Source of the DNA: Asticcacaulis biprosthecium C19
GTDB lineage: Bacteria; Pseudomonadota; Alphaproteobacteria; Caulobacterales; Caulobacteraceae
Reading direction: 5' to 3'
Assembly: GCF_000204015.1 (NCBI RefSeq)
Contig: NZ_GL883077.1
Span: 299,281 to 331,428 of the forward strand
DNA length: 32,148 nt
Shown: piece after piece, positions 12,174-18,518 of the stretch
Numbering within the stretch: the first letter of the stretch is position 1
How the letters are laid out: every line of letters starts with the position of its first letter
Notes under the pieces: model-generated
The model's database searches: none
The model's input: the letters and a program-made list of their open reading frames with translations, nothing else
Told to the model about the DNA's origin: nothing
Program-made: the position numbers and the translations under genes

Positions 12174-13082
12174 ATGCGCAAATGGGGGCGGATTATCTGG
12201 GGGGTTATTGGGCTGGGCGTCATCGCCATGGCTGCCGACGCCTTCTGGTTCGAACCGCGCAGCACGGTTGTGTCCGAATTCGATGTCGAGGTCCCGGCCT
12301 GGCCGAAGGATACCGCACCGTTGCGGGTCGTTCTGCTATCCGATATCCATGTCGATGACGTCCACATGCCGCCCGAGCGCGTTCGAAAGATCGCCGAACA
12401 GGTCGCAGGCTTGAAACCTGACGTCATCCTGCTGGCCGGCGACTATATCGGTGGCGACGTCTTCAAGGGCCGCAAGGAGTTCGGCGCCCGCCCGATGCGA
12501 TCACCAGAGATGATTGCCTTGGATGAAGAGGGGTTGCGGGCGCTTGATAGTTTCAAGGCGCCGCTCGGCACCTACGCGGTGATGGGTAATCACGACTGCT
12601 GGTGGGATTGCGACCGGGTGCGCGAAATTTTCGCCGAGACACAGGTGACGTTCCTCGAGAACCGGGCCTTCCGGATTGAGCGGCCCAGCGGCGATGTCTG
12701 GATTCTGGGGGTCGAGGACGGCCAGACCCAAAACCCGGACTTTCCGGCCACGGCGGCCCAGGCGCCGGCGGGTGCCGCCACCCTGACATTGACGCACAAT
12801 CCCGGCCTGTTCGATTGGGAGTCCAACCACGCCCCGATCCAGTTGTCAGGGCACAGCCACGCCGGCCAGGTGCGGCTGCCGCTCATCGGCGCCCCCGTGC
12901 GTGTGGTGCGCCATACCGAGGATACCGCCGACGGCTATGAAGTCATCAACGGCCGCATACTGATAGTGACGCGCGGACTGGGGTCAAGCGGCATCCCTGT
13001 GAGGTTCGGTGCGCCACCGCAGATCATGTTGCTGAATATTCGTCCAGGTACGGAAGCCCACGTAAGGCCTCACCAACCTTAG
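12174..13082 (+). CDS. Membrane-anchored metallophosphoesterase (YaeI-like)
   Basis: The 302-residue calcineurin-like phosphoesterase has all metal-binding blocks: D57 and H59 in SDIHVDD, D90 in LLAGDY, N139-H140-D141 in GNHD, H208 in THNP, and H227/H229 in SGHSHAGQ. Residues 6-24 form one hydrophobic helix without a clear cleavage site, so the catalytic domain is probably anchored facing the periplasm. The family includes E. coli YaeI and enzymes acting on UDP-diacylglucosamine-like or phosphodiester substrates; the substrate here is unknown. AAGGACGG precedes the ATG. Its TAG stop overlaps the convergent GT61 stop codon by four bases. Confidence 0.93.
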   Translation: MRKWGRIIWGVIGLGVIAMAADAFWFEPRSTVVSEFDVEVPAWPKDTAPLRVVLLSDIHVDDVHMPPERVRKIAEQVAGLKPDVILLAGDYIGGDVFKGRKEFGARPMRSPEMIALDEEGLRALDSFKAPLGTYAVMGNHDCWWDCDRVREIFAETQVTFLENRAFRIERPSGDVWILGVEDGQTQNPDFPATAAQAPAGAATLTLTHNPGLFDWESNHAPIQLSGHSHAGQVRLPLIGAPVRVVRHTEDTADGYEVINGRILIVTRGLGSSGIPVRFGAPPQIMLLNIRPGTEAHVRPHQP

Positions 13083-14122
13083 AGCTCCCGGATCAGGGCG
13101 AGCAGGTCGTGTGCCGTCGCCTCGGGATCTTCGAGATAATCCGAGGTCAGAAACTTATCCTGATTTTGCATCTCACGATAGCCGCGGTCGTCATAAACAT
13201 AGCCGGCCGTCCGGTCGTTGAGACGGTCAAACAGGAGCAGATTGGAATTGACCGAATGGCTGGCCGACAGGGCGACGACCCTAGCTACCGGCGGGGCCAG
13301 GATTCCGGTATGGAGCTGCGTACCGCCCGTGCCGGCGATGACCCGGTTCTCGGCAAACAGGCGGACCTGCTCGCGAAGGCTCAACTGCTCGGGATAGACT
13401 ATGCCGATGCCATTACTGGCCAGAACGTTTTCGATCACCGATTCATTGCCAATACGGCCGACTCCGCCCAGCAATTTCGTCTTGCTGAAATAGACCGGTG
13501 GCAGCGCTGTGGTCATGTCGAGGCCGTCGAGAAACTGTTCGCCGATGCGGTGGCACAGGTCGCGGTGGGCATGGTGACCAAGCAACTGCTCAACGAAACT
13601 GGGTCGCGGGATGATCAGCCTGCGGATGCGGCGCGGTTCCTGGAAGACGACAATATCGTCCGGCTTAAGGCCCAGGCCTTCCAGTGTCATGGCAGCGTAG
13701 GGGATTCGGAACTCGTGGTCAGGCCCGTTGGGGGCGTGAAGCAGGAGCTTGCGCCCGTTCAGTCCTTCGCGCAACAGCGGCCACAGCCGAACCAAGGTCG
13801 AGCACAGATAGTGGCCGTAATGGGATATGAAACAACCCATATAGATGTATTCGATATCCTCGGCCCAGTCGAACTCGGTCGGGAAGGGATGCGCGTGGAC
13901 CCGGCTCTGGCCGCACAGGCGTGGCGGTGTACTGTTCCCCCGCCGTAAGGCGGCGGCATCGATCAGGTGACCATCCGCGCCGTAGACCCCCCAGTTCGGG
14001 TCTTTGTCATACCAAACTTGCCGCGACAGCGGAAAATAGGTGACATCATAGTGCTTCTCGATCGCCGGCGGTTCCTGCACAATAGCTGTGCCGCCCCAGA
14101 AGTTGGTGCATTCCCGTAGCAT
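13079..14122 (-). CDS. Glycosyltransferase family 61 (DUF563-like) protein
   Basis: The 347-residue protein resembles GT61 capsular/O-glycan transferases. The diagnostic part is the C-terminal half: VYFSKTKLLGGVGRIGNE, VYPEQLSLREQVRLFAENRV, then the strongly conserved IAGTGGTQLHTGILAP (the family usually shows G-x-x-G-x-x-L/H-x-N here). The middle has the GCFISHYGHYLCSTLVRLWPLL stretch (FISHYGHYL), also typical. GGGAGG stands before the ATG. It lies 56 bp downstream of the chemoreceptor on the same strand and could be part of that transcript, although function does not link them clearly. It has no signal peptide. The sugar and acceptor are unknown. Confidence 0.85.
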   Translation of the reverse strand: MLRECTNFWGGTAIVQEPPAIEKHYDVTYFPLSRQVWYDKDPNWGVYGADGHLIDAAALRRGNSTPPRLCGQSRVHAHPFPTEFDWAEDIEYIYMGCFISHYGHYLCSTLVRLWPLLREGLNGRKLLLHAPNGPDHEFRIPYAAMTLEGLGLKPDDIVVFQEPRRIRRLIIPRPSFVEQLLGHHAHRDLCHRIGEQFLDGLDMTTALPPVYFSKTKLLGGVGRIGNESVIENVLASNGIGIVYPEQLSLREQVRLFAENRVIAGTGGTQLHTGILAPPVARVVALSASHSVNSNLLLFDRLNDRTAGYVYDDRGYREMQNQDKFLTSDYLEDPEATAHDLLALIREL

Positions 14123-14178: not shown

Positions 14179-15903
14179 CTACAGGGTTGCGGCCCGTTTC
14201 AGGAAGGTTTCCACCACCGTCTTCATCTGATCGGCCTGCTGCGACAGGCTGAGCGACGCTTCCGTCACCGCGCCCGACACCGTGCCGGCCTCTTCGGCAG
14301 CGTGGTTCAGCTGCTCGATCGTCGCCGAGGCCTCGCCAGCCCCTTGCAGGGCCGTCGAGAGGCTCATCGTGATTTCGTGGGTCGCCTGGACCTGTTGACG
14401 CACGGATTCGGAGGTATTTTCCGAAATTCCCTGCATCTGGACGATAACCCCGGCAATGTTGCCGATCTCAGATGTCGTGCGGTCAGCCGCGCGGCGAACA
14501 TCGCCGATACGGCCGCGAATCTCTTCCGTGGCTTTCGAGGTCTGCTCGGCCAGGCTCTTGACCTCGTGCGCAACGACGGCGAAACCCCTGCCGGCATCCC
14601 CTGCGCGGGCGGCTTCGATGGTGGCGTTCAGCGCCAGCAGGTTGGTCTGTTTGGCGACGGACGAGATCAGGTCAACAATCTCATTGATCCGGGCAACCGC
14701 CTGGGTGAGTTCCGCTACGGCCGTCTGGGTATGCTCGGCACGGTCTGTGGCGTCGCGGGCGACTCCGGCGGACGCCGTCGCCTGGCGGTCGACTTCTGAA
14801 ATGGTCGCGCCGAGCTCTTCGGAGGCGGCGGCCACCGCACTCATAGAATCACGCACGGCGAAGATCGAATTAACCGCTGAATGGGCCCGGTTGGCATTTT
14901 CGGACGAAGTCGAGGTGAGGATCGACGCCGACTGCTCCAGGTGGCTGGAGGCTTTTTCGACGCCCCGAATCAGACCGCTGAAGTCGCGGTTGAAGCCGGC
15001 GATGAGTTGTTCCATTTCCGAAGCGCGGGCCAGACGGGCGCGTGACGCCTCTTCCTGGTCGGCGGCCATGGCGCGGCTTTGTTGGGTGACGTCCTTGAAC
15101 ACCTGCAACGCCTGGACGACCTGGCCCAGCTCGTCGCCACGCTGCAGCTTCGAGGGCTCGACCGTCATATCGGCATCAGCCAGTCGGTGTGTGGCGTCGG
15201 CAATCGCCTTGATCGAAGTCGAGGTGCTGCGGCCGATGATGACACCGAGCCCGCCGGCACCCAGGGCCGCGACGGCAGCAATAATGGCGATAACCAACAC
15301 GTCCTGCTGCGCCGACTTGACGCTTTCGGCGGCCTCCGCCTTTGCGCGGGCTTCGGTGCGCTTGAGGACCTTCTGCACGATAGCGTCGGTGTTCTGCTCG
15401 GAGGCAGCATACGGCGGCAGGAAGGAGATGGCCGCGTTCAGGTCGATCTCGAGCATGGACGATACGAACTCGATCGCCCCCTTCTGGGTTTCGATCTCGG
15501 TGATCAGCTCTTCGAAGGCCTTCTTGTCCTCGGGGTCAGTCACCTTGGCAGCGCGCGCCTTGACCTTGTCCTGCAACCCCTTGAGGCTTTCGGCGATCTT
15601 GGCGGTATTGGCCGCCGAGCCGATGACGGTGTCGCCGCCGGCCCGTGCCGCCAAGGCGTTGTACAGATCACGGGCATCGCCGCGCAGTTCGGCGCGGACC
15701 TCACCCAGGAACAGGGCATTGTCCATCACCCCGTTGACCACCGTGTCCATGCGTCGGGTCTGGTTCTGCAGCGCCAGGGTGGCGCTGGCCGCCAGGACGA
15801 TGATCAGCGCCACCGCCATAAGCGAAGGCACCAGGAATTTCCAGATAAACGGCCAGTCGGACGGACGGGCCCATCCAGGTTTCTTTGCAGATGAAGAGGT
15901 CAT
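14179..15903 (-). CDS. Methyl-accepting chemotaxis protein linked to a TonB receptor
   Basis: The 574-residue chemoreceptor has an N-terminal membrane helix (about 22-45), a periplasmic helical domain of about 155 residues (four-helix-bundle type by length and pattern), a second membrane helix (about 203-225, [19 protein letters not shown]), a HAMP domain, and a cytoplasmic coiled coil with tip [20 protein letters not shown] then [16 protein letters not shown]. It is the third gene after a YfiR-like periplasmic protein and a TonB-dependent receptor on the same strand, 66 bp behind the latter. This suggests it reads the state of that pair in the periplasm. No CheR-docking tail and no che genes nearby. 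Confidence 0.94.
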
Positions 15904-15936
15904 GGTGACGAGGACCTTATTAAACGTAAATAATGA

Positions 15937-15960
15937 CCGCCGGGACGCCTATCCCGGCGG
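15937..15960 (-). terminator. Hairpin between TonB receptor and chemoreceptor genes
   Basis: CCGCCGGGA (15937-15945) pairs exactly with TCCCGGCGG (15952-15960) around a six-base loop. On the minus strand it is followed by CATTATTTACGTTTAATAA, a moderately T-rich tail. It would act as a partial terminator, lowering chemoreceptor expression relative to the receptor, or as an mRNA stabiliser. Confidence 0.6.
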
Positions 15961-15969
15961 CCAGTGGCC

Positions 15970-17955
15970 TTACCAGCGCTTGGTCAGGCTGAGGAAGACG
16001 GTGGACGGAACCCGGTAGGCGGCGGTCTGAATCTTGGCGTTACCCAGGTTCTGGCCGCTCAGCGACACGGTCATGCTGTCCGTAAGTGTGTAATTGACGT
16101 TGGCAGCCAGTGTGAGGTGGGCCGGGATAGTTGTCACGGCATAGGTCTCCGGAGCGAAGGTGTCGAAATCGTCCGTGTGGTGGAGATAAGCGTCGATCGT
16201 CCATTTGCTGCCCGACCAGCCGACATTCAGATTGGCCCGGCTTTCCGGCGACATACGGCCAAAGGCGGCGCGCAGTTCGGTCAGGTTGCGGGTCGGATAG
16301 GCTTCGTCCTCGATGTCGGTGGCGGTATAGTCAGCGCTCCAATGGAAGGCTTCGCCCAGCTTGCCCGAAGCCGACAGTTCGAAGCCGGTCATTTCGGAAT
16401 CGGCGACATTCAGCCAGCTCAGAGCCGGATAGGTGGTCAGGGTCGGATACTGGTAGAAGGCGGTCGACGAAGGCTGGCCTTTCACATTGTCCGAGGTCTG
16501 AGTGAACAGTTTGACGCCAAGCTTTACCGACGTAAACGTCCGATCGTAGGAAATTTCGCTGTTCTTGACGATGGTCGGTTCGATGGTCGGATTGCCCATG
16601 ACGGCGATGGGACCGGAGATGAGTTGGAAGCCACCCAGTTCGATCAGGGTCGGCGCCTGGACGCCCTTGGCGGTCATGACACGCAAGGTGTCCTTGTCGC
16701 TGATCCGCCAGACGGCGCCGGCGTTGTAGCTGAGCTCGCTAATGTCACGGTCCCAGTTCGCATTGTCAGCCATAGGGAAGCCGGCGGGAAAGCTGCCGGT
16801 GCGCTTGAGCTTGACATTGTCCGAGCGGATGGCGACCGCGGTCGACAGGGTATCGGAGATGGCCCAGTTCCACATGGCCGATGGGGCCATGACGGTGTAG
16901 CTGACCTCACCGCCGGTCAGCGGCGTGGTCGGCATTTCGTTCTGGCGGAACTCGACGCCAAAGCGGAAGGTGTGCTTGCCGCGCTTGAACAGGTCCTGAA
17001 GGCTGACCACCGAGATGGTGTTGTCCAGCGGCACCGGACCGGCGACATTGGTGTTGCTTTTCAGGGTGTTGCGGTAGGCAGTCGCTGTGACCAGACCCAC
17101 CGGCGTGTCAGACGTCAGGTCCAGTTTCACCGACCCGGTCCGGTACTTCGTTTCGGACATATCGTAGTTCGACACCGCGTCGTTGGACTGGGTGTTCGAC
17201 CACGAGGTCTCGAAACGCAGTTCGGTCTTCTCGGTCAGCGAAATCACGGTGTCGAGGTTGACATTGGCCCGTGACGCCTCCGGACGATAGCTGGGGGCGC
17301 CGAAGGAATTGTCCCACTCGTCGGCCTTCGAGGCACCGGCCGACAGACGGGCGGCAATCTTCGGCGAAAGGCGGAAGGTCTGGACCAGCGAGGCTTCGGC
17401 GCGGTTGCGCGAACCGGCCGAGACCGAACCGCCGCTGACCGTGTCGTACTTCGGATTATAGGTGATGATATTGACCACGCCCGACACGGCGTTGAAGCCA
17501 AACAGAGCCGAGTTGGGACCTTTCACCACCTCGATCTGGCGGATTTCCGACAGTTGGACGGGAATGGTCTGCCAGGCGGTGTAGCCGTAGTGGTCGAGAT
17601 AGACCTGGCGGCCGTTGACCAGCACCAGCAGGCGCGGCGACATGGCCTGGTTGTAGCCGCGGACGCCGACATCGGCGCCGTAGGTCGACCAGTTCAGCAC
17701 GTCGATACCGGGCACGCGGCTGATCAGGGTTTGCAGGTCATGGGCGCCCGAGCGCTTGATGTCCTCGGCCGAGATGATGGTCATGTCGACCGGCACTTCG
17801 GTAGAACGCTGAGGCGACCCCGTGGCGGAGGTGGTGACGGGCTCACCGAACAGGTCCTGCAGCGAACCGTAGTCGATGGATTGAGCACCGGCGGCGCCGG
17901 CAATGAAAGGCAAGGCCGCGACGGCCGCCGTGAGAAGAGAGGTGAATTTACGCAT
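15970..17955 (-). CDS. TonB-dependent outer-membrane receptor
   Basis: The 661-residue protein has a clear signal peptide (MRKFTSLLTAAVAALPFIAGAAGA, cleaved before QS), a plug domain (about 40-165: VDMTIISAEDIKRSGAHDL, SRVPGIDVLNW, VRGYNQ, VLVNGRQVYLD, IEVVKGPNSALFGFNAVSG) and a beta-barrel ending in LSLTKRW, with a terminal aromatic for outer-membrane assembly. The early mature segment SLQDLFGEPVTTSATG matches the receptor subgroup opening with S-L-E/Q-E/D-L and V-T-S, which I associate with loci that carry YfiR-like and signalling genes. It follows the YfiR-like gene by 29 bp with a GGAG ribosome-binding site. The transported or sensed ligand is unknown; no FecA-type signalling domain is present. 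Confidence 0.94.
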   Translation of the reverse strand: MRKFTSLLTAAVAALPFIAGAAGAQSIDYGSLQDLFGEPVTTSATGSPQRSTEVPVDMTIISAEDIKRSGAHDLQTLISRVPGIDVLNWSTYGADVGVRGYNQAMSPRLLVLVNGRQVYLDHYGYTAWQTIPVQLSEIRQIEVVKGPNSALFGFNAVSGVVNIITYNPKYDTVSGGSVSAGSRNRAEASLVQTFRLSPKIAARLSAGASKADEWDNSFGAPSYRPEASRANVNLDTVISLTEKTELRFETSWSNTQSNDAVSNYDMSETKYRTGSVKLDLTSDTPVGLVTATAYRNTLKSNTNVAGPVPLDNTISVVSLQDLFKRGKHTFRFGVEFRQNEMPTTPLTGGEVSYTVMAPSAMWNWAISDTLSTAVAIRSDNVKLKRTGSFPAGFPMADNANWDRDISELSYNAGAVWRISDKDTLRVMTAKGVQAPTLIELGGFQLISGPIAVMGNPTIEPTIVKNSEISYDRTFTSVKLGVKLFTQTSDNVKGQPSSTAFYQYPTLTTYPALSWLNVADSEMTGFELSASGKLGEAFHWSADYTATDIEDEAYPTRNLTELRAAFGRMSPESRANLNVGWSGSKWTIDAYLHHTDDFDTFAPETYAVTTIPAHLTLAANVNYTLTDSMTVSLSGQNLGNAKIQTAAYRVPSTVFLSLTKRW

Positions 17956-17984
17956 GGGTACGAACTCCGGGGCGCTGTCTGCGC

Positions 17985-18518
17985 TTAAATTTCCTTGATC
18001 ATCATTTTGAAAGCGGCTTTGAACTTTGCGCCGACGGCGGCCGCAGCGGCCGAGTTGACGACGATTTCGACCTTGGGCGTGGCGGCCACGCCCATGACGC
18101 AGGCGCCGGATTTGACGCAGGCCATGTCGGAGCTGATGCTCAGGGTCTTCTTGCTCTTGGCCGCGGCGCCGACGGCGGCGTAGTTGACGCCGCGCGTGAT
18201 GTAAAAGGCGCCGACATCGCCGGCGGATCCGATGGCGCCGGCCTCGACCGGCTTACCGACCACTGTGGCGGAACCGGCGGCCATGCCGGAGCCCAGAGCG
18301 GCCATGACCTGGTCCTTTTCAGCGACGGAAGCCGGTTTGGAAGCGTCGTAGACGATGGCGAAAACGACCTTACCGGTCGGTCCGTTTTCGAGGAAGGTCA
18401 AGGTGCGTCCTGCAACCTGGATCTCCCGGGCGCCGTCGGCCTGAGCGGCCACGGGCATTAAAGATAGCACTCCGGCTGCGGCAAGCATGGCCCCGGAACG
18501 CAAATGACGTTTTGTCAT
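17985..18518 (-). CDS. YfiR-like (DUF4154-like) periplasmic protein
   Basis: The 177-residue protein has a signal peptide (to about residue 27, AAQADG). The body follows the order of YfiR/DUF4154 proteins: a first strand VVFAIVYD, the VVGKPVE turn, a DVGAFYITRG strand in place of the usual C-H-V-L-F-I, KTLSISSDMACVKSGACVMG, then PKVEIVVNSAAAAAVGAKFKAAF and a basic end MMIKEI. In Pseudomonas, YfiR is the periplasmic repressor of the membrane diguanylate cyclase YfiN. Two cysteines six apart (CVKSGAC) may form a disulfide, as in YfiR. First gene of the cluster with the TonB receptor and chemoreceptor. The family call rests on motif order, not on a search. Confidence 0.65.
   Translation of the reverse strand: MTKRHLRSGAMLAAAGVLSLMPVAAQADGAREIQVAGRTLTFLENGPTGKVVFAIVYDASKPASVAEKDQVMAALGSGMAAGSATVVGKPVEAGAIGSAGDVGAFYITRGVNYAAVGAAAKSKKTLSISSDMACVKSGACVMGVAATPKVEIVVNSAAAAAVGAKFKAAFKMMIKEI

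Follow-up and report, generated by a model that had tools for sequence, protein, structure and literature searches.

In the YfiBNR system of Pseudomonas aeruginosa, YfiB at the outer membrane draws the periplasmic protein YfiR off YfiN (PMC4655355, PMC4887326, PMC3375315; here and below these papers are cited for the portions of their text available to us). The YfiR-YfiN pair is described as modular, and one sentence in the Discussion of Malone et al. 2012 (PMC3375315) names methyl-accepting chemotaxis protein (MCP) domains among its outputs. Here we analysed a 32,148-nucleotide stretch of the genome of Asticcacaulis biprosthecium C19 (contig NZ_GL883077.1, positions 299,281 to 331,428; hereafter the window), in which three open reading frames (ORFs) on the minus strand, spaced by 29 bp and then 66 bp, encode a YfiR-like protein, a TonB-dependent receptor and a chemoreceptor. 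A first-pass annotation of the same letters had reported this gene run and these gaps, and the ORF coordinates confirm them. It had also proposed that the occupancy of the outer-membrane receptor is passed through the periplasmic protein into chemotaxis by the logic of YfiBNR, an interpretation that our analysis supports in part. The view we favour is that of a sensory module spanning the cell envelope, in which the YfiR-like protein would act as an adaptor coupling the outer-membrane TonB receptor to the inner-membrane chemoreceptor. Three observations underlie this view: the conserved order of the genes, the YfiR fold predicted for the 177-aa protein and the exchange of partners between genomes.

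A divergent YfiR-like protein and its two partners

The sole Pfam match of the 177-aa protein is DUF4154/YfiR (PF13689; E 0.051, 14.1 bits), below the cut-off of 24.9, and NCBIfam returned no match for it. DUF4154 is matched at E ≤ 1 by 14 of 22 chosen relatives, the best at E 1.9e-6. The protein starts with a signal-peptide-like stretch ending AQA-D, as judged by eye. An AlphaFold2 model built from 20 sequences reached a mean predicted local distance difference test score (pLDDT) of 77.6 and a predicted template modelling score (pTM) of 0.74, with residues 1–26 below 50 and the other four models at 50–62. When this model was compared with the PDB using Foldseek, the eight best matches were all P. 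aeruginosa YfiR structures (E 4e-4 to 1.7e-3, with seven at ≤0.001; probability 1.00; template modelling score over the query, TMq, 0.53–0.57), and substrate-binding proteins followed from rank 9 (5z6v at rank 9, 6hnj at 18 and 3lft at 21). Entries 4zhu and 4zhy are YfiR and YfiR-YfiB, respectively, by the accession note of PMC4655355, despite other titles in the PDB listing. The 177-aa protein had been called YfiR-like in the first-pass annotation, and it does fit the YfiR fold. On the modelled structure we take it to be a very divergent YfiR-like protein, an assignment that is weak by sequence alone and firmer with relatives and fold.

The only two cysteines of the protein, C134 and C140, are invariant in 23/23 aligned sequences; in a wider set of 22 YfiR-like sequences C140 alone is invariant. 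YfiR has a structural disulfide, C145-C152 (PMC4655355), and C134/C140 lies near this site when counted from the C-terminus without superposition, with a spacing of 6 vs 7. The second YfiR cysteine pair, C71-C110, has no counterpart in the window protein. The C-terminal third is the best-conserved part (mean column entropy 1.7 vs 1.9–2.1), and the conserved partner-binding face of YfiR sits on its C-terminal helices (PMC4655355). Other searches gave three designed repeat proteins from PDB sequences with the family profile (best E 0.0039, discarded as chance), no relative in the viral contigs searched and, for DUF4154 in the source genome, one weak match besides the window gene (E 0.073, at C3:660434), around which no gene resembles any of the window's three.

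We identified the partners by a Pfam scan of seven genes of the window. As first annotated, the receptor consists of a Plug domain (E 2.9e-19, starting at residue 53) and a barrel (E 8.6e-25), with no STN, or FecA-type, signalling domain in the Pfam scan. It is not a member of the nearest NCBIfam model, TOL_0244 (138.5 bits vs a cut-off of 645), and its N-terminus contains VTTSATG, which we take to be TonB-box-like. The source genome (5.41 Mb) is rich in TonB receptors, with 70 Plug-domain matches at E ≤ 1e-6, and has five CheW-domain matches in two places.

The third protein is a membrane chemoreceptor with a helical periplasmic domain, again as first annotated, followed by HAMP (27.2 bits, cut-off 25) and MCPsignal (E 2.3e-32) domains. 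No Pfam family fits the periplasmic domain, and the Pfam scan of the protein gave neither CHASE8 nor GGDEF. A model of this domain (pLDDT 84.8) has four helices at 2–43, 48–75, 79–106 and 117–161, and its nearest folds in Foldseek are domains of Vc1313, PcaY_PP and Tar (TMq 0.6–0.76, best E 0.011), with unrelated helical proteins listed too. Two relatives of the bundle score above Pfam cut-offs (locus L127 for 4HB_MCP_1 and TarH, L189 for 4HB_MCP_1), ruling out a new domain, and the periplasmic domain is, as modelled, a Tar-like four-helix bundle. M150, D154 and P164 are invariant in 14/14 aligned bundle domains, all drawn from beside a YfiR/receptor pair. The motif that holds them, at the turn between helices 3 and 4, is by topology the predicted membrane-distal tip, where a periplasmic protein could dock.

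Conserved gene order and exchange of partners

The three-gene order is present in other genomes besides this one. We found a strong YfiR-like match in 35 of 199 Caulobacteraceae genomes (44 matched at E ≤ 0.01, and nine whose best match was 7.5e-4 or weaker were dropped). Across these 35 genomes, the receptor gene adjoins the YfiR-like gene on the same strand in 40/40 copies, 39 plus the window's. A chemoreceptor lies downstream in 19 of the 35 copies with a contig that runs on; L046, L050, L053, L054 and L068, where no more than about 650 bp of contig remain past the receptor, were left out of this count. Six of the 19 chemoreceptors, all in Asticcacaulis, are of the window's type (type 1), and the other 13 belong to a second type. 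In one further genome, G061, one contig stops 7 bp past the receptor and another starts 75 bp before a chemoreceptor of this kind. In two genomes (L041:8045-17700 and L045:7965-16702) two receptor/YfiR pairs, 1.6–2.5 kb apart, precede one chemoreceptor gene.

Several of these loci show other peculiarities. The receptor beside the YfiR-like gene is split into two frames at L063:8536-10598 (471 + 204 aa), either a broken gene or a sequencing error. At L067:8395-14323 (G172) one YfiR-like copy contains an internal duplication and a second is interrupted by unread bases. Four second-type loci (L057:9597-11501, L060:10054-11958, L062:10097-12013 and L064:10028-11947) have an upstream chemoreceptor-like gene of a different N-terminal type on the opposite strand.

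A family profile run against 385 Alphaproteobacteria matched 14 genomes, the source genome included; G251 and G441, with short matches at E about 8e-4, were dropped. Outside Caulobacteraceae, the receptor adjoins 12 of 14 copies and the YfiR-like gene stands alone in the other two. The partner is a chemoreceptor in six of these 14 copies, a GGDEF-EAL protein in two, an in-line hybrid kinase in one and a divergent kinase in one; one more copy has no signalling partner and one is at a contig end. At L133 a divergent hybrid kinase lies upstream in addition to the chemoreceptor partner. A survey of this kind had been proposed with the first-pass annotation, and in it the same pair is seen with a chemoreceptor, a kinase or a GGDEF-EAL protein as third partner. 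Among 398 phylum-wide genomes, the sole match outside the class was short and had three stops, so this YfiR-like branch looks alphaproteobacterial in the genomes sampled.

For canonical DUF4154 genes, a PF13689 search of 249 phylum genomes gave 78 matches in 59 genomes, from which we chose 40 loci; one genome contributed seven. Of the 40, 27 have a same-strand TonB receptor gene no more than 600 bp away, 35 a kinase or GGDEF/EAL gene and 22 both; with the seven-locus genome removed, the counts are 22/33 for the receptor and 20/33 for receptor plus kinase/cyclase. No chemoreceptor lies beside the canonical gene at any of the 40. Because 22 of the 40 loci have receptor and kinase/cyclase, and seven of eight scanned neighbours of canonical DUF4154 genes carry CHASE8, we regard receptor, YfiR and kinase/cyclase as a common arrangement, of which the chemoreceptor form looks like a branch with a different periplasmic domain. 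YfiN itself also carries CHASE8.

Genome G665 (L248–L254) holds seven DUF4154 matches, several adjoining TonB receptors, and at L254 a single 864-aa frame joins DUF4154 to a hybrid histidine kinase.

To compare the histories of the genes, we built a receptor tree of 41 rows (38 plus three canonical) and a YfiR-like tree of 30 rows, chosen from 55 copies. L039, which has three stops at the coordinates used, was kept out of the receptor tree, and a 31%-identical YfiR-like copy of G099 was left out of the YfiR-like tree. Of the YfiR-like proteins entered, the seven from Asticcacaulis cluster together (100/98); a type-1 chemoreceptor accompanies six of them but not the seventh. Identity to the window at L036 is 42% for the receptor, 74% for the YfiR-like protein and 67% for the chemoreceptor; at L038 the values are 46%, 67% and 68%. 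Neither of these two receptors belongs to the window's receptor group: the L036 receptor falls outside the 26-row Caulobacteraceae group (100/100), its exact place weakly supported, and the L038 receptor clusters with those of second-type loci (100/100). The trees include some long branches, and the YfiR-like tree rests on 177 columns. In Asticcacaulis, then, the receptor has apparently been replaced while the YfiR-like protein and chemoreceptor stayed together, as one would predict for an adaptor whose inputs can be swapped; the trees support this reading without proving it.

Coordinates of the three genes and their features are collected in the table. On the same strand, 56 bp past the chemoreceptor gene, lies a glycosyltransferase-61 gene (window 13079-14122); in the ORF listings of L034, L035 and L036 other genes come next after the chemoreceptor. 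The window has no Rfam match at gathering thresholds, and hence offers no riboswitch clue to the ligand.

Table. Features of the three-gene locus, in window coordinates.
Feature	Position	Strand	Basis
YfiR-like periplasmic protein, 177 aa	17985..18518	-	ORF; DUF4154 sub-threshold; predicted fold
Signal-peptide-like N-terminus of YfiR-like protein, residues 1-27	18438..18518	-	by eye
Cysteine pair C134/C140 of YfiR-like protein	18099..18119	-	alignment, 23 sequences
TonB-dependent receptor, 661 aa, Plug + barrel	15970..17955	-	ORF; Pfam
Receptor mature N-terminus, residues 25-52, TonB-box-like VTTSATG	17800..17883	-	alignment
13-bp hairpin in receptor/chemoreceptor gap	15934..15963	-	terminator scan; folding vs shuffles
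Methyl-accepting chemotaxis protein, 574 aa	14179..15903	-	ORF; Pfam
Chemoreceptor periplasmic four-helix-bundle domain, residues about 47-202 (modelled)	15298..15765	-	alignments, model, Foldseek
Conserved 17-residue motif at predicted helix 3-4 turn, residues 149-165	15409..15459	-	alignment, model
Chemoreceptor HAMP domain	15091..15237	-	Pfam
Chemoreceptor MCP signalling domain	14281..14781	-	Pfam

A candidate signal path and its rivals

The gene group is real, conserved and modular, and a signalling path from receptor to chemoreceptor is plausible. By analogy with YfiBNR, we infer that the three proteins interact and that signals flow among them, so that what the cell detects at its surface may be relayed through the periplasm to the chemotaxis machinery. 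The YfiR-like protein would use its C-terminal face to bind the inner-membrane partner, which in this locus means the bundle tip farthest from the membrane, and the bound protein would bias CheA through the HAMP and signalling domains. Since YfiB sequesters YfiR in YfiBNR, we read the receptor as the input, whose ligand or energisation state would either set the amount of free YfiR-like protein, in a YfiB-like sequestration, or load that protein with ligand.

Within the module we lean slightly towards sequestration over ligand hand-off. In a hand-off, which we consider only a little less probable, the receptor would import a compound, the YfiR-like protein would bind it and the loaded protein would dock on the chemoreceptor tip. 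Maltose-binding protein docks on Tar and is the model for such a scheme, which fits both the Tar-like bundle and the substrate-binding proteins that the YfiR-like model also matches, albeit ranked behind YfiR (5z6v, 6hnj, 3lft). On the other side, no inner-membrane transporter is present among the seven genes scanned, and the YfiR-like protein keeps its chemoreceptor as receptors change, which is easier to reconcile with an adaptor than with a protein that binds one specific ligand.

Several findings weigh against a module of either kind, most of them concerning the bundle. The bundle is found in 99 of 199 Caulobacteraceae genomes: in 34 of the 35 with a strong YfiR-like match, and also in 65 of the 164 without one (three of these matches weak or partial). 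When 39 of those 65 genomes were searched, the family profile A4, run without a positive control, matched in 0/39 and PF13689 in 10/39, leaving 29 of the 39 in which no YfiR-like gene was detected. Of 20 bundle loci fetched, the pair adjoins at L202, while L207 is at a contig edge, L208 is unconfirmed (it was taken for a weak bundle match that a repeat search did not reproduce) and 17 are without the pair. At two of these 17 the bundle heads a histidine kinase, a hybrid one at L201:9331-12177 and a GAF histidine kinase at L204:9508-11607, and the source genome itself encodes a second chemoreceptor with the same kind of bundle (L189:9063-10784, on C3), all three with no adjoining YfiR-like gene. 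Chemoreceptors without a YfiR-like gene beside them largely retain the tip motif, and the partner chemoreceptor at L135 is without the shared bundle. The occurrence of the bundle in genomes with no detected YfiR-like gene weakens the idea that it is a dedicated YfiR reader and, with bundle and motif this widespread away from the pair, the domain by itself cannot prove YfiR binding. The window chemoreceptor also lacks the CHASE8 domain of the canonical neighbours. The YfiBNR logic assumed in the first-pass annotation is accordingly looser than it had supposed, both in the missing CHASE8 and in a Tar-like bundle that occurs independently of detected YfiR-like genes.

The remaining counterevidence concerns the receptor and the layout of the locus. 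No chemoreceptor adjoins in 16 of the 35 evaluable pairs. Conservation of the receptor N-terminus relative to the plug is unexceptional: 70.2/59.9% in 22 chosen receptors, resembling the 28.7/24.3% in 28 further receptors that the genome encodes (the 30 top-scoring of its 70 Plug matches, minus the window's own and one partial), and we dropped the periplasmic N-terminus as a mark of YfiR contact. A terminator-like 30-nt hairpin with a 13-bp stem lies in the 66-bp gap between the receptor and chemoreceptor genes, its stem the longest among seven terminator-like sites in the region, a count only slightly higher than the shuffled mean of 4.3. By eye, the gaps of relatives have hairpins of unrelated sequence in 18 of 20 cases (none in L128, unclear in L038), and seven picked gaps fold better than shuffles (z -3.3 to -5.0). 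With this hairpin, transcription may not continue in full from the receptor gene into the chemoreceptor gene. The 30 nt between the hairpin and the chemoreceptor start codon are too short for an ordinary promoter; the chemoreceptor gene is therefore probably transcribed by read-through, more weakly than the receptor and YfiR-like genes.

In a rival scheme the genes would be co-regulated and otherwise unconnected, the receptor and YfiR-like protein serving uptake or another task and the bundle of the chemoreceptor directly sensing a compound, whether that one or a different one. The hairpin separating the receptor and chemoreceptor genes agrees with this, as do the bundles in chemoreceptors and two histidine kinases with no adjoining YfiR-like gene, and the closest solved folds include domains that bind amino acids, aromatic acids, malate and citrate, by their PDB titles. 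Yet a chemoreceptor, a kinase and a GGDEF-EAL protein interchange beside the same pair, which points to a signalling output, and in the available text of PMC3375315, PMC4655355 and PMC4887326 YfiR is presented as regulating a signal protein in the inner membrane; we judge mere co-regulation unlikely. A further scheme, in which the YfiR-like protein senses redox state or envelope stress for the chemoreceptor and the receptor is a passenger, would account for the invariant cysteine pair (23/23), and YfiR is reported to respond to the periplasmic redox state (PMC4887326). It strikes us as very improbable: the receptor is the most constant neighbour (40/40) and the chemoreceptor less so (19/35), and the redox-switching pair of YfiR, C71-C110, is the one absent from the window protein.

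Returning to the sensory module, we also put forward, tentatively and with some doubt, a broader version, in which YfiR-fold proteins would be general periplasmic adaptors joining exchangeable TonB-receptor inputs to exchangeable outputs (kinase, cyclase or chemoreceptor), the alphaproteobacterial branch having moved to a different docking domain, the distal tip of a Tar-like bundle, and more than one receptor supplying a single chemoreceptor. The usual assumption is that chemoreceptors sense compounds already past the outer membrane. If YfiR-fold proteins are such adaptors, swimming bacteria could orient themselves by compounds whose capture at the surface depends on a TonB receptor. Through a relay of this kind, cells could follow large or scarce compounds, such as siderophores, cobalamins or glycans, where these are captured; TonB receptors, with 70 Plug matches in this genome, would gain a way of signalling besides that of FecA; and the relay would account for the frequent adjacency of YfiR-fold genes to TonB receptors and kinases/cyclases (22/40 chosen loci).

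Comparison with described systems

The first-pass annotation had considered a path of this form undescribed. A search of literature titles and abstract openings, with preprints and most subscription papers outside its coverage, found none from receptor through YfiR to a chemoreceptor or kinase; one lead, the HmrABCX paper (PMC11481889), is unrelated as far as its accessible text goes. The claim of novelty is in part mistaken: MCP outputs had been mentioned by Malone et al. 2012, though the word 'TonB' is absent from the text of that paper (PMC3375315; its supplementary tables lie outside this check).

Among other known systems, FecA-FecR-FecI likewise uses a TonB receptor as signalling input, but the receptor here is without STN, and no FecR or sigma-factor gene is among the seven genes scanned. 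Binding-protein chemotaxis through Tar/MBP (maltose-binding protein) and Tsr/LsrB resembles this locus in placing a periplasmic protein on a four-helix-bundle chemoreceptor, if the docking we propose is right; it differs in that the adaptor here is YfiR-like, an outer-membrane receptor gene adjoins and an inner-membrane transporter is missing from the scanned genes.

YfiBNR itself shares with the locus a YfiR-fold periplasmic protein encoded with an outer-membrane protein and an inner-membrane HAMP protein, and a cysteine pair near the C-terminus of the YfiR-type protein. In contrast to YfiBNR, a TonB receptor here replaces the lipoprotein YfiB, with no OmpA match in the seven genes; a chemoreceptor replaces the GGDEF protein, and a predicted four-helix bundle the PAS-type domain; and the second cysteine pair (C71-C110) is absent. 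The divergent YfiR-YfiN systems with histidine kinase, GGDEF-EAL and MCP outputs have the same exchangeability of outputs, although they are described, in the text available, as retaining a PAS/HAMP core (PMC3375315). What differs here from the described YfiR systems is the combination of a chemoreceptor output with a TonB-receptor input.

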